A stretch of 10,379 nt of DNA. Source: Rhizobium sp. LCM 4573. GTDB taxonomy: Bacteria; Pseudomonadota; Alphaproteobacteria; Rhizobiales; Rhizobiaceae. Numbering within the stretch: the first letter of the stretch is position 1; each line of letters starts with the position of its first letter. Location: NCBI RefSeq assembly GCF_001854865.1, contig NZ_MDDW01000030.1, forward strand, positions 35,348-45,726. Reading direction: 5' to 3'. Shown here in pieces: positions 3,743-9,250 of this stretch. A model generated the notes under the pieces. It saw nothing but the letters and a program-made list of their open reading frames with translations, did no database searches and had not been told where the DNA came from. The translations under genes were made by a program, and so were the position numbers.

Positions 3743-4309
3743 ATGGATGATTTCGAGACGCTGGACCTGGCGCTGTTCGGGCTCTGGGCGGAACAGCCGC
3801 GCTTTGGCGAGACCGTACGGATGGAGGATCTGCGCCTGGCCGATGCGGTGCGCGGGGTGCTGCTGGAGACGAAGTCCGCCGAGGGCATGCGCTCCGACGG
3901 CGAGGAACTGCGGCGGTTGCTGAACGAGATGACGGTGGAGATGCGCGCGCAGTTTTCGACCTTCCGCAAGCTGCGCGCCACCGCCGAAGCGCTTCTCGAC
4001 GGCGGCGACGAGGCAGCGCAGAAGCTCGCCCGCGCCGACGTGAAGGCCGCGACCGATGCCATGTCGCTGATCGTGCGGACGCTCGAAAAGGTGGATGCCC
4101 TGCAGCGCCAGCTTGCCCGCGACCGGGAGCTGGAGGCCGAACGGCAGGCGGAGGAGGGCGGGTATGAGGATGCGGTGCGCGAAGTCGAGCGGCTTATCGA
4201 GGAACGCGCGCGCGAACGCTTTGAGAGCTGGAAGTGCGAGGGGCGTGCTGACGGCGGTGAGCCCGGCGGTCCGGGAGGGGATCGACCGCAACCGCCTGAC
4301 ACCGGGTGA
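3743..4309 (+). CDS. Putative small terminase / GTA gp1-like protein
   Basis: The 188-residue protein is largely helical and charged, with heptad-rich segments around residues 52-84 and 110-165, so a coiled coil is likely. It has no signal peptide and no recognisable enzymatic motif. Its place directly before the large terminase matches gene 1 of the Rhodobacter-type GTA cluster, whose product is a small terminase. The functional call therefore rests on position, coiled-coil character and size, not on a sequence motif. The ATG at 3743 has only a weak upstream ACGGA. The last 25 residues (from about 164) are Gly/Pro/Asp-rich and look like out-of-frame coding. From about 4245 the +1 frame looks more protein-like, so the natural C-terminus may have been lost by a frameshift. 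No paralogue is present in the window. Confidence 0.7.
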   Translation: MDDFETLDLALFGLWAEQPRFGETVRMEDLRLADAVRGVLLETKSAEGMRSDGEELRRLLNEMTVEMRAQFSTFRKLRATAEALLDGGDEAAQKLARADVKAATDAMSLIVRTLEKVDALQRQLARDRELEAERQAEEGGYEDAVREVERLIEERARERFESWKCEGRADGGEPGGPGGDRPQPPDTG

Positions 4310-4361
4310 GGAAGCGGTTCCCGATAGCTTTTCGGAAGTCCTAGCCAAGCATGAGGTTGGC

Positions 4362-5990
4362 ATGACGCGGATCGGCGAGCTTTGCACGATTGCTCGCAAG
4401 GCCAATCAGGCCGGTGCGGCGGTGATCGAGGGCCTTCAAACCCCTGCTGGCTCTGCTAGCGATCTTACCCTTGATAGTGGTGTAATGGCATGTGGAAAGA
4501 AAGGGCGCGGCGTATCGATCTCCCACCTTGAGGGGGAGATGCCCGGCAGGGCAGAGGGGGATATCGCCTCGACAGACGTGCAGGCTGATCCTGCCGAGCC
4601 GTTGCCACCCCCCTCTGTCATCTCCGGTGACATCTCCCCCTCAAGGGGGGAGATCAGAGGGAGTGTGCCGCTAGGTCTATCTTCCTCTCTTCTCCCCGTC
4701 GGGGGGAAAGTACCATCAGCTTCGCCGAGAGAACCTGATACGACGAAGCACCCTACGTGGCCGAGACATGCGCCGCGCCTGCAGCGCGGATGGTTTCTCT
4801 TCGGCCGTCGCGAGCAAAAGCCGCCCGAAGGCGATTGGCGGACCTGGCTGATCATGGGCGGGCGGGGATCGGGCAAGACGCGGGCGGGCGCGGAATGGGT
4901 GCATGCGCTGGCCTGCGCCTCCAAGCGCTCGAACCTGAGGATCGCGCTGGTGGCAGAGACGCTGGGTGACGCCCGCGAGGTGATGATCGACGGCGTTTCG
5001 GGCATTTGCCGGGTTGCTCGGAGCAAGCGGCCGGAATTCGAGATCTCGCGGCGAAGGCTGGTGTGGCCGAACGGTACGGTGGCGCAGATCTTCTCCTCCG
5101 AAGACCCGGAGAGCCTGCGCGGGCCGCAGTTCCATTTCGCGTGGTGCGACGAGCTCGCCAAGTGGAAATACCCGGAAGAGACTTTCGACATGCTGCAGTT
5201 CGGGCTTCGGCTCGGGGCCGATCCGCGCCAGCTCGTGACGACGACGCCGCGTCCCGTGCCGGTGCTGAAACGGCTGATCGCCGAGCCGGGAACGCGGCTC
5301 GTGAGGATTTCGACGAGAGACAATGCCGGCAATCTGGCGCCGGGCTTCATCCAGGTGCTCGAAGGACGCTATGGCGGCACGCGGCTCGGGCGACAGGAAC
5401 TCGAGGGCGAGCTGATCGAGGACCGCGAGGATGCGCTGTGGAAGCGCACCGACCTCGAAACCTGCGTGATCCGGTTTGCCGGAGCGCTGCGTCGCGTCGT
5501 AGTGGCAGTCGATCCGCCCTCAGGCGCAGGAGCAAGCTCCTGCTGCGGCATCGTGGTGGCCGGGATAGAGGCGGGCGGGCGTGGCGTGGTGCTGGCGGAC
5601 TGTTCGGTGGAAGGAAAAAGCCCCGCCGGCTGGGCGCATGCGGTGGCGAGAGCCTACGAACGCTTCCAGGCGGACCGGGTGGTGGCCGAAGTCAACCAGG
5701 GCGGCGAGATGGTGACAGCCATGCTGAAAAGCGTGGACGCGAACCTGCCCGTGGTCATGGTGCGGGCGACGCGCGGCAAATTCCTGCGCGCCGAACCGGT
5801 GGCCGCTCTCTATGAGCAGGGCCGGGTGGCCCATGCCGGACGGTTCGCAGAACTGGAGGACCAGATGTGCGACTTCGGACCGGAGGGGCTCTCCAGTGGC
5901 CGTTCGCCCGACCGGCTGGACGCGCTGGTCTGGGCGCTGACGGCGCTGATGCTCGAAGGACAGGGCGAGCCGAGGGTGCGCGGGGTCTGA
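4362..5990 (+). CDS. terL: Terminase large subunit (phage/GTA DNA-packaging ATPase-nuclease), start uncertain
   Basis: This motor protein pumps DNA into the prohead and cuts it. The conserved part begins near 4780 and runs about 403 residues to the stop. Numbered from ATG 4362, Walker A is G-G-R-G-S-G-K-T at 166-173 and Walker B is F-A-W-C-D-E with Asp263/Glu264, followed by the L-V-T-T-T-P-R-P coupling segment. The RuvC-like nuclease acidic residues are probably Asp384 (A-V-D-P-P-S-G) and Asp517/Asp520 (S-P-D-R-L-D-A-L-V-W). The frame is open far upstream, through a palindromic repeat, so the true start is unclear. Candidates are GTG 4245, ATG 4362 (GAGG five bases before it), ATG 4485, ATG 4539 inside the repeat and GTG 4665. 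I chose 4362 for its ribosome site. Rhizobial relatives as I recall them are about 420-430 residues, so up to 120 N-terminal residues may be foreign. Confidence 0.9.
   Translation: MTRIGELCTIARKANQAGAAVIEGLQTPAGSASDLTLDSGVMACGKKGRGVSISHLEGEMPGRAEGDIASTDVQADPAEPLPPPSVISGDISPSRGEIRGSVPLGLSSSLLPVGGKVPSASPREPDTTKHPTWPRHAPRLQRGWFLFGRREQKPPEGDWRTWLIMGGRGSGKTRAGAEWVHALACASKRSNLRIALVAETLGDAREVMIDGVSGICRVARSKRPEFEISRRRLVWPNGTVAQIFSSEDPESLRGPQFHFAWCDELAKWKYPEETFDMLQFGLRLGADPRQLVTTTPRPVPVLKRLIAEPGTRLVRISTRDNAGNLAPGFIQVLEGRYGGTRLGRQELEGELIEDREDALWKRTDLETCVIRFAGALRRVVVAVDPPSGAGASSCCGIVVAGIEAGGRGVVLADCSVEGKSPAGWAHAVARAYERFQADRVVAEVNQGGEMVTAMLKSVDANLPVVMVRATRGKFLRAEPVAALYEQGRVAHAGRFAELEDQMCDFGPEGLSSGRSPDRLDALVWALTALMLEGQGEPRVRGV
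4517..4655. repeat. RIME-like palindromic mosaic repeat within the 5' part of terL
   Basis: Outer arms 4517-4541 and 4631-4655 are inverted copies of 25 bases with one mismatch, and inner arms CAGAGGGGG (4552-4560) and CCCCCTCTG (4609-4617) match perfectly. Each outer arm also folds on itself (ATCTCCC with GGGAGAT). The CTCCCCCTTGAGGGGGAG style of motif is typical of Rhizobium intergenic mosaic elements (RIME), which are non-coding and usually lie between genes. A further short hairpin, TCCCC-GTC-GGGG, lies just after it near 4691-4706. The element has no stop codon in the terminase frame. Confidence 0.8.
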
Positions 5991-6005
5991 TGTCTCGGCC
6001 GCGCT

Positions 6006-6161
6006 TTAAGGGCGTTTCAAGGGGATCTGGACGGATGGTGCGGGCGCGTTTTCGCGCATCTGCTGCCATTCGGATTCGAGGCGGTCCAGCACATGCTGCG
6101 GGATGGGCTGCTTGGCCGGGGCGTTATCGACAGCGACTGGGGCAGATTGGTGCATCATCAT
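6006..6161 (-). CDS. Small hypothetical protein (about 50 residues) under an EcfG-type promoter
   Basis: This short gene lies opposite to its neighbours in the gap after the terminase. It has three consecutive ATG codons (6161, 6158, 6155) and a strong AAGGAG ribosome site at 6170-6165; the middle ATG has the best spacing, six bases. The product, 51 residues from the first ATG, is hydrophilic. It has a Pro/Ala-rich start, one amphipathic helix around residues 22-37 (H-V-L-D-R-L-E-S-E-W-Q-Q-M) and a short basic end (K-R-P). No membrane segment or Cys is present. The stop TAA lies 15 bases from the terminase stop, so the two genes converge. A perfect GGAAC-N16-CGTT promoter sits 24 bases upstream. 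I do not recognise the family. Promoter, ribosome site and frame together make it a convincing real gene with a likely stress role. Confidence 0.75.
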   Translation of the reverse strand: MMMHQSAPVAVDNAPAKQPIPQHVLDRLESEWQQMRENAPAPSVQIPLKRP

Positions 6162-6184
6162 GATCTCCTTTCAGCGAGCCATCT

Positions 6185-6209
6185 AACGTTGCTTCTGCCT
6201 CTTGGTTCC
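6185..6209 (-). promoter_or_regulatory. EcfG/RpoE2-type promoter of the small minus-strand gene
   Basis: GGAAC (6209-6205, minus strand) and CGTT (6188-6185) are separated by exactly 16 bases, a perfect match to the alphaproteobacterial general stress response consensus. Predicted start of transcription is near 6178, giving a leader of under 20 bases that carries the AAGGAG ribosome site. Confidence 0.75.
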
Positions 6210-6249
6210 ACAGGGTTTCACAAAAGTAAATCACCCGCCTAACGGCTTA

Positions 6250-6276
6250 AAACGATTTAGTTTTTCTAAACCGATT
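6250..6276. promoter_or_regulatory. Operator-like inverted repeat upstream of the endolysin gene
   Basis: Arms of 11 bases (6250-6260 and 6266-6276) match at 9 positions around a TTTTT spacer; the core TTTAG-N5-CTAAA is perfect. It lies in an AT-rich island 45 bases before the endolysin ATG and 41 bases upstream of the -35 box of the divergent small gene. It resembles a binding site for a dimeric regulator. It is close to, but not spaced like, the Irr box as I recall it (TTTAGAA-N3-TTCTAAA). The rest of the gap 6162-6320 holds the EcfG promoter and the endolysin ribosome site. Confidence 0.45.
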
Positions 6277-6320
6277 GAAACTTTCGGATTTCCTCAAGAA
6301 CAGTAAACGGGAGGGGCGGC

Positions 6321-6947
6321 ATGCATGTCGAGCGGCGCTATTTCTTCGAGCGTGTGCGGGCCGAAATCTTCGGCGGCAGGCTGCGGGCGAAGCAGGTGGA
6401 GGGGCTGAACGCGGTTCTCGACGGATGGCGGAAGCGGGGTGGGGGCGGAGAGCCGGAGGCGCTGACGCAATCGCTGGCCTATGTGCTGGCGACCGCCTTT
6501 CACGAGACCGCCGGCACCATGCAGCCGATGCGCGAGACGCTGGCGAGGACCGACGCGGCGGCGATCGCCAGGTTGGAAAAGGCCTATGCGAGCGGCCGGC
6601 TCGGCTCGGTCCGGACGCCCTACTGGCGGCCGGACGCGGAAGGAAAGAGCTGGCTCGGCCGTGGGCTCGTGCAGCTCACCCACCGGCGGAACTACGAGGC
6701 CATGTCGGAACTGACCGGCGTGGATCTGGTGAGCGATCCGTCCCGCGCCATGGAAATGGAGGTTTCGGTGACGATCCTGATCGAAGGCATGCGGGCGGGC
6801 AGCTTCACCGGCATGCGGCTTGGCGATTATTTCGGGCCCCGCCGGGACGACTGGCTGGGCGCGCGGCGCATCATAAACGGCACGGACCGGGCGGAACTGG
6901 TGGCCGGATATGGAAGGGCGTTTTGCCGCGCGCTTGCCGGGGTTTGA
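6321..6947 (+). CDS. GH19-type (chitinase/lysozyme-like fold) endolysin
   Basis: The 208-residue protein resembles the GH19-fold cell-wall hydrolases carried by rhizobial phages and prophages, which cut peptidoglycan to release particles. The likely catalytic Glu is Glu62 in A-T-A-F-H-E-T-A-G-T-M-Q-P (residues 57-69). The lysozyme-like G-R-G-L-V-Q-L-T-x-R-x-N-Y motif follows at 113-125, and A-R-R-I-I-N-G-T-D-R-A near 181-191. No signal peptide or membrane segment is visible, so it would need a holin or other exit route. The start ATG 6321 has a strong GGGAGGGG ribosome site. An overlapping open frame at 6275-7183 is only a shadow. The gene sits between terminase and portal, a place not occupied in the Rhodobacter GTA cluster; its transcription may come from the AT-rich island upstream. 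Chitinase activity is possible but less likely in this context. Confidence 0.85.
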   Translation: MHVERRYFFERVRAEIFGGRLRAKQVEGLNAVLDGWRKRGGGGEPEALTQSLAYVLATAFHETAGTMQPMRETLARTDAAAIARLEKAYASGRLGSVRTPYWRPDAEGKSWLGRGLVQLTHRRNYEAMSELTGVDLVSDPSRAMEMEVSVTILIEGMRAGSFTGMRLGDYFGPRRDDWLGARRIINGTDRAELVAGYGRAFCRALAGV

Positions 6948-7001: not shown

Positions 7002-7310
7002 ATGATCCGCCATATCGTCTTCTTCACCGCCCGGAGCGACGAGGATCGCAACGCGGTGCTTGCCGGCCTGTCGCTGCTGACCGAGATACCGCATGCGCGG
7101 CTTCTGGAGATCGGCAGCAATGCGAAGACAGACCAGCTCGGCAATGCGGTGGATTTCGTGGTCTATGGCGAGTTCGACGATGAGGCCGCACTTATCGCCT
7201 ACAAGGCGCATCCGCTCTATCAGAAATCCATCGACAGGGTGAGGCCGCTTCGGGAAATGCGGATCGCGGCGGACTACGACACGGACAAGGCGGCGAGGCG
7301 GCCGGTTTGA
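7002..7310 (+). CDS. Dabb-domain (stress-responsive alpha/beta barrel) protein
   Basis: The 102-residue protein is one Dabb domain (dimeric alpha/beta barrel, PF07876 type). It begins M-I-R-H-I-V-F-F, the typical first strand with its conserved His. F-V-V-Y-G-E-F-D-D-E-A-A-L-I-A-Y-K-A-H-P at about 53-72 is the standard strand-helix segment, and a final strand ends near A-A-D-Y-D. The family forms homodimers; its members have varied and often unknown roles, including stress-related proteins and small cyclases, so the function cannot be set. GGAGTGAG lies just before the ATG as a ribosome site. The gene follows the endolysin after 54 bases and is probably co-transcribed. It is not a phage structural type and looks like a cellular passenger. 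Confidence 0.87.
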   Translation: MIRHIVFFTARSDEDRNAVLAGLSLLTEIPHARLLEIGSNAKTDQLGNAVDFVVYGEFDDEAALIAYKAHPLYQKSIDRVRPLREMRIAADYDTDKAARRPV

Positions 7311-8663: not shown

Positions 8664-8675
8664 ATGGAGGCTGCC

Positions 8676-8954
8676 ATGACCAAGCCCGTTCTTTCCGACC
8701 CGATCACCCTGCGCCTGCCGCTCGACATTCTGGAAGATATCGAGAAGATCGCCGAGACGGCGGACAGAAGCCGGAGCTGGGTGATCGTGAGGGCATTGAA
8801 ATATTACCTGATGGCGGAGGGGAGTGAACTCTTGGAAATTGCCACGGCGCGCCAAGAGGTTCGTGAAGGCAAGGTCATGGATATGGACGACCTTCTCGAT
8901 GAATTAGACGCATTGAATGCGCAGGATGAGAAATCGCGGAACGATGCCGCATGA
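8676..8954 (+). CDS. parD: ParD/CopG-type ribbon-helix-helix antitoxin
   Basis: The 92-residue protein has an N-terminal ribbon-helix-helix fold: the strand S-D-P-I-T-L-R-L-P (residues 7-15), a helix with I-L-E-D-I-E-K-I-A, the turn R-S-R-S-W-V-I and a second helix R-A-L-K-Y-Y-L. The acidic C-terminal half (M-D-M-D-D-L-L-D-E-L) is the usual toxin-wrapping tail. Such proteins bind DNA as dimers and neutralise a ParE/RelE toxin. The start at 8676 is preferred because GGAGG lies five bases upstream; an in-frame ATG at 8664 overlaps the operator edge and has no ribosome site. The stop overlaps the toxin start (ATGA, 8951-8954), the classic coupled arrangement. Since the toxin gene is damaged, this antitoxin may now be an orphan repressor. 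Confidence 0.92.
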   Translation: MTKPVLSDPITLRLPLDILEDIEKIAETADRSRSWVIVRALKYYLMAEGSELLEIATARQEVREGKVMDMDDLLDELDALNAQDEKSRNDAA

Positions 8955-9250
8955 GACAGAGTCCGTATCTCCACTATGGCCGGGGACTACATCCGGTCGG
9001 AACGGACCTATCTGGCGAAATTCAACGCGCAGGCTGCGCGGGAATTCAGCAGGAAACTGCGGAGCACGCGAGAGTTGCTCGCGCGTCATCCGGAGATTGG
9101 CAAGGTCAAGCCGGGTTCGAACGGTGTGCGGCTACTGATCCCTATCTCTTCGAGTATGAAATCCATCCGGATGAAATTCTAGTACTGGTTGTCCGGCATG
9201 GGCGGCAGGATGACCGGCATGACGAGGATGAGGACGTGTACGGCGGGTAA
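8951..9250 (+). pseudogene. parE: ParE-type toxin relic with two compensating frameshifts
   Basis: The frame starting at ATG 8951 runs 99 codons to 9250, the normal size of a ParE toxin, but only its two ends look like ParE. The start gives M-R-Q-S-P-Y-L-H-Y, and the end, from about 9134, gives T-D-P-Y-L-F-E-Y-E-I-H-P-D-E-I and V-V-R-H-G-R-Q-D-D, the usual last strands. The middle 53 residues are nonsense in this frame, while another frame (8976-9137) encodes the missing part: Y-I-R-S-E-R-T-Y-L, A-A-R-E-F-S-R-K-L and L-L-A-R-H-P-E-I-G. So the frame shifts by +1 near 8975 and back by -1 near 9131-9139, where loss of a single G from CTGGATCC would explain it. The product should be inactive. A sequencing error is possible but would need two events in one gene. 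The tail after 9250 up to 9425 holds no gene. Confidence 0.85.

Follow-up and report, generated by a model that had tools for sequence, protein, structure and literature searches.

A small gene on the minus strand of a GTA-like cluster in Rhizobium sp. LCM 4573, placed between the genes of a terminase and a lysozyme-like protein and preceded by what looks like a general-stress promoter, raises the question of whether it belongs to the GTA or only resides there. The window, which is the whole stretch of 10,379 nt that was analysed, was compared with related genomes. The comparison of sequences indicates that the gene is conserved and selected as a protein, and that an EcfG-type promoter and an AT-rich dyad, which can be separated from each other, lie upstream of it.

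Results

The small gene within the GTA-like cluster

The source genome of the window is 5.52 Mb long. The cluster in the window contains genes of a terminase, a GH19-type lysis protein, a Dabb protein, an HK97-type portal and a prohead protease, and its portal protein shares 91% identity with the portal of Rhizobium sp. LC145 and at most 87% with Neorhizobium portals. The large terminase gene terL (4275..5990, plus strand), assigned by matches to the Terminase_6N/6C domains, is convergent with the small gene at a distance of 15 nt, and the GH19-type lysozyme-like gene (6321..6947, plus strand; PF00182) is divergent from it. The small gene has cluster genes on both sides, terminase on one, GH19 and portal on the other, and the preliminary description was right in placing it inside a GTA-like cluster. 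No terminator-like site was detected between positions 5700 and 6420 of the window.

Several other features of the cluster were observed. The gene of the Dabb protein, a "stress responsive A/B barrel" (7002-7310, plus strand), lies between GH19 and portal, and it is found near the same place in many relatives, not in all. Between portal and prohead protease (8664-9182, plus strand) the gene of a CopG-type RHH protein lies ahead of a short frame of ParE type (PF05016, 20.9 bits, slightly under the cut-off of 23), and the two possibly form a toxin-antitoxin pair inside the GTA cluster. Ahead of the terminase domains (about 4440-4700) words similar to SPLEGEM, PSRGEIRG and PPQGGRS occur in several frames, which may point to an interspersed repeat that was inserted into the front part of terL. 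The same genome also contains a second, distant portal gene (G000:C1:22857-23855), which is 27% identical and is probably part of a prophage.

The small gene occupies positions 6006..6161 of the minus strand, exactly as a 51-codon frame had been read there, and its assignment is based on the open reading frame, its homologues and purifying selection. The claimed ribosome site AAGGAG is present at 6165..6170 on the same strand. Three in-frame ATG codons at 6161, 6158 and 6155, which leave 49-51 codons, are located 3, 6 and 9 nt, respectively, from this site. The most usual spacing corresponds to the ATG at 6158, and the database cluster P0001 also begins at this second ATG; the second or third ATG is a likelier start than the first. 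A ribosome site with at least four matching bases was found in 85 of the 87 homologous ORFs, the starts of which had been picked for such a match.

Distribution and selection

A single-sequence search with the small protein returned only two proteins, one of which was the window's own. Because the query is short such a search is nearly empty, and whole-genome and profile searches were therefore needed. Among the 297 genomes sampled from the bacterial family of the window, 39 had a match in the profile search (E ≤ 1e-5), and these belong to 11 of 109 genera. In the protein database 222 proteins matched the profile at E ≤ 0.01, and among the matches listed (120 of 222) the source names, where given, were hypothetical or uncharacterized protein only. 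The gene had been called unlisted, which holds only partly, as several relatives are annotated under such names. A homologue search over the whole order, which had been proposed as a check, gave five carriers, all from family f1, in a sample that contained few f1 genomes and in which at most 24 candidates per genome were scored. A 377-residue frame of genome G521 (E 1.9e-4) in this sample was taken as a chance match. The small gene is thus likely restricted to Rhizobiaceae. A lone relative was also observed elsewhere in genome G204 (L174:3799-3897); its 7.5-kb stretch contains no EcfG box, and frames that by eye are transposase-like lie about 2.3 kb downstream.

The surroundings of the gene were compared in named loci, which are the best 80 of 290 loci found via the portal gene. 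The small gene is present in 47 of these 80 loci, and its 47 ORFs are a subset of the 87 homologous ORFs, among which some genomes appear twice. In all 47 loci of this best-80 set the gene is on the strand opposite to portal and upstream of GH19, and in 46 of them it is flanked by terL and GH19, the remaining one being L068, the available stretch of which is without terL. The gap between terL and the small gene does not exceed 120 nt in 23 of the 46 measurable loci, and it is 134-2471 nt in the other 23. On the other hand, 31 of the 80 named loci (best 80 of 290) contain terL and portal but not the small gene; in the two others of the 33 loci without it, L052 and L070, terL is not in the stretch.

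The pN/pS ratio of the core was 0.42 in the frame versus 0.59-2.43 in the five other frames, as calculated from 3681 pairs, which are not phylogenetically independent and from which stop-containing ones were skipped in the other frames. The window and its nearest relative, L031, differ by four synonymous and no non-synonymous changes. These substitution patterns indicate that the frame is under purifying selection and evolves as a protein. It represents an undescribed small-protein family; no curated family describes it, and at the level of titles and abstracts the surveyed literature contains no description of it.

Two upstream elements

The window has the GGAAC-N16-CGTT box that had been proposed as a general-stress promoter, with the −35 element GGAAC at 6205..6209 and the −10 element CGTT at 6185..6188 of the minus strand. 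Its spacing agrees with the published EcfG pattern, which is GGAAC-N16-17-cgTT, also used as GGAAC-N18-TT-N8-G (PMC6011840); the Sphingomonas version is GGAAC-N17-20-GTT (PMC6599016). The PMC6011840 pattern predicts a transcript start at about 6176, close to the position near 6178 that had been suggested.

A strict box with a spacer of 16-17 nt was found within 150 nt upstream of 39 of the 47 named homologues (best 80 of 290), and the spacer was 16 nt long in 36 of these 39. The same box preceded 15 of 2497 control ORFs, which came from the 80 named loci and were at least 100 residues long; among 9400 mononucleotide-shuffled upstream sequences it occurred in 4. Among the eight named ORFs without a counted box, L041 and L057 have TGTT instead of CGTT, L042 and L058 have a strict box outside the counted 150-nt stretch, and in L056, L061, L062 and L067 the strict box is absent and terL and portal are retained. 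The 30 distinct 16-nt spacers are on average only 43% alike, and therefore the conserved part consists of the two box ends. The bare motif with spacers of 15-18 nt is not enriched genome-wide (201 matches vs 318 in the reversed control), so the case for a promoter rests on position and conservation. The genome has an EcfG system, with nepR detected by PF18557 in locus L167 next to genes that by eye we take to be those of an ECF sigma factor and a divergent phyR, and a GGAAC-type box of the same kind is located 43 nt upstream of this presumed phyR. Overall, the comparisons argue that the association of the box with the small gene is not due to chance, and that the EcfG-type promoter is kept in most GTA-bearing carriers. 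The frame and, in most GTA-bearing relatives, the promoter box are conserved, the lack of which would have spoken against the preliminary description, and the observation itself is confirmed and stands more firmly than first put.

Upstream of the EcfG box there is another element, absent from the preliminary description, which is an AT-rich dyad, TTTCAATCGGTTTAGAAAAACTAAATCGTTTTAA, at 6247..6280 of the minus strand, with the pattern CGRTT-N10-12-AATCG. Comparison of the named loci (best 80 of 290) marks it as a putative regulator site: the pattern [AT]CGRTT-N10-12-AATCGNTT was found in 47 of 47 loci with the gene and in 0 of 33 without it; 31 of these 33 have terL and portal. In 46 of the 47 loci the distance between the dyad and the assigned start is at most 220 nt; only in L058 is it greater. 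The dyad is more widespread among carriers than the EcfG box. In the window's own genome the long form of the dyad has one site with at most three mismatches, which is the window site itself, and the control has none. Two of 13 mirrored pairs matched above the level expected from independent pairing (1.0 vs 0.73 and 0.58 vs 0.33; 19 distinct sequences), and this excess is as expected for a site that would be bound by a putative dimer. Both small gene and dyad are absent from L082, L083, L086, L087 and L102, in which GH19 is present, and both are present in the 13-kb loci L145-L148, which have no significant match to any of seven proteins of the window cluster. In its occurrence the dyad thus follows the small gene rather than GH19.

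The two elements are distributed between the copies of the gene in the ten tandem duplications that the profile search showed. In 10 of 10 the EcfG box is found upstream of the second copy and not of the first, and in 9 of 10 the dyad is found upstream of the first copy and not of the second, as judged with a pattern slightly looser than that used for the 47 and 33 named loci; the tenth, L175, has a dyad variant which was recognized by eye and missed by the pattern. The simplest reading is that two ancestral inputs were partitioned after duplication.

Carriers without the GTA

Twelve GTA-less genomes, which are the carriers in genera g30, g46 and g71 from the profile search, were picked for having the gene, and the counts for these genera refer to carriers only. 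None of the 12 has a GTA-type portal, as the portal search gave only matches of 27-31% identity and one 39-residue remnant, and terL was not matched at E ≤ 1e-60 in any of them. Carrier G175 was left out of this set, because it has the GTA portal, even though terL was not matched. In all 12 genomes the gene is intact and the dyad, searched with the slightly looser pattern, is kept, while the EcfG box is present within 220 nt in none. The pN/pS ratio was 0.34 in g46 and g71 together (28 pairs) and 0.44 in g30 (6 pairs). Purifying selection on the gene where the GTA is missing indicates that it has a function outside the GTA.

The same genes flank the small gene whether or not the GTA is present; the genes of this neighbourhood are presumably ycgN/UPF0260, feuP/feuQ and cycHJK. 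In the genome of the window, about 34.5 kb including the GTA lie between the ycgN-like gene and feuP; the corresponding interval of L145 (genome G045 of g46) measures about 1.5 kb and contains the small gene. In g30 genomes GH19 or Dabb remnants are still beside the gene. A decaying GTA was also observed in L184 (G128:C97), where a 39-residue portal remnant with a stop codon lies near the intact small gene and dyad.

The missing box in the 12 GTA-less carriers could reflect a stress input linked to the GTA. This argument is weakened because we infer only about two independent lineages of box loss, and because L056, L061, L062 and L067 are without the strict box in the presence of terL and portal.

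Predicted product

The AlphaFold2 model has one helix at residues 22-38, with pLDDT of 82-90 in this block and an overall mean of 70, and flexible ends. The helix carries the conserved motif IPxxhxxRhExEWRQhR, and the tails are rich in Pro, Ala and Gln. Its hydrophobic moment is modestly above that of shuffled sequences, of which 3.7-11.2% were as high for the four peptides compared. A scan of 42 members gave nothing over the curated cut-off in Pfam, where the best match was PilJ (E 0.0063, in two members; 12.9 bits for the window protein against a cut-off of 26.6), and no significant match in PHROGs (best E 0.021, in one member). The window protein, the sole member scanned there, had no match in NCBIfam, and Foldseek gave no match in the PDB. 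A profile search of PDB sequences returned one weak match, 3pes (E 0.16), and no PDB relative was accepted; one sub-threshold snoRNA match in Rfam was taken as chance. The product is probably cytosolic and is most likely a small docking protein, the helix of which would bind a partner protein.

Discussion

We consider it probable that the gene encodes a small helical protein, independent of the GTA, with two transcriptional inputs, one of which is EcfG. Under general stress PhyR and NepR would release EcfG, which would initiate the transcript about 6 nt upstream of the ribosome site and 15-18 nt upstream of the start codon. A dimeric regulator on the dyad may drive or gate transcription under another condition, and where the EcfG box has been lost, the dyad would be the conserved site that remains. 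The product would act as a small modulator by helix docking, independently of the GTA, and the cluster would be the vertically inherited address of the gene rather than its function.

The preliminary description had offered two readings, an independent stress protein that settled in the cluster or a tie of particle production or lysis to stress. In the latter, the small protein would couple general stress to GTA production or GTA-mediated lysis, perhaps by being induced under stress and then inhibiting or assisting the neighbouring terminase or GH19 lysis protein. It agrees with the location of the gene, which is flanked by terL and GH19 in 46 of 47 named loci (best 80 of 290), with the presence of the EcfG box in most GTA-bearing carriers as opposed to 0 of 12 GTA-less ones, and with the reported effect of a stress-type partner-switching system on RcGTA in Rhodobacter (PMC3999984). 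However, a structural or lysis gene of the GTA should co-occur with it, and the small gene does not: it is present and under selection in 12 genomes without a GTA portal, and it is missing from 31 of 80 named loci (best 80 of 290) with terL and portal, five of which also have GH19. The reading as an independent stress protein thus appears to fit better, the data do not support direct involvement in lysis or in the production of the GTA, and we regard the coupling as rather unlikely. A further, likewise doubtful reading is that EcfG drives the peptide only in the presence of the GTA, so as to restrain particle production or host lysis under stress, and that the dyad serves an older function independent of the GTA, the two jobs having been split between two genes by tandem duplication.

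A transcript from the EcfG promoter could also act mainly as an antisense RNA on the 3′ end of terL, silencing terminase under stress in an excludon-like manner. Convergent genes 15 nt apart in the window with no terminator-like site at 5700-6420, and gaps of at most 120 nt in 23 of 46 measurable loci, are consistent with this, but the other 23 gaps reach 134-2471 nt, selection acts on the amino acids, and the gene persists without an intact terL, which makes such a role quite improbable. The peptide is equally improbable as a NepR-like feedback regulator of EcfG/PhyR, corresponding to the half of NepR formed by the IP-linker and the second helix. The EcfG-type promoter and the local likeness of GIPDRFLDLLE to PIPQHVLDRLE point in this direction, but the hhalign probability is 3.4% over 15 columns, PF18557 is not matched by any of 42 members at E ≤ 1, the invariant W of the family has no counterpart in eight aligned NepR sequences, and some carriers have lost the box but not the gene. 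Membership in NepR (PF18557) was dropped, because the likeness is local and non-significant and no profile match extends over both helices. A chance ORF with a chance box, which the shortness of the ORF and the absence of genome-wide motif enrichment might suggest, is refuted by conservation, selection and control counts, and we see hardly any room for it.

The family offers a natural experiment: the gene occurs in GTA-bearing and in GTA-less genomes, and its two inputs either share a single copy or are divided between two. It opens poorly annotated small members of the stress response of Alphaproteobacteria to direct tests, and the dyad is a cis element, the regulator of which can be sought biochemically. 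The gene also cautions that not every resident of a GTA cluster is part of the GTA.

To our knowledge, the small gene is outside the RcGTA gene set. It resembles RcGTA-like clusters and their regulators (CtrA, GafA, GafY/GafZ, Rba partner switching) in having its address inside such a cluster, and it differs in being on the opposite strand and in being kept after GTA loss. At the level of titles and abstracts, the surveyed literature contains no EcfG control inside a rhizobial GTA cluster. With NepR, which the window's own genome also has, it shares the short length and the IP..hL..hE start of the helix, but it is without the first NepR helix and has other invariant residues. Its promoter fits the GGAAC-N16-17-cgTT pattern of the EcfG/RpoE2 general stress regulon at promoter distance. 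In that regulon 150 of 202 rpoE2-dependent protein genes of S. meliloti are without predicted function (PMC3616915). The difference from this regulon is that the dyad, the other input of the small gene, is better conserved than the EcfG box.
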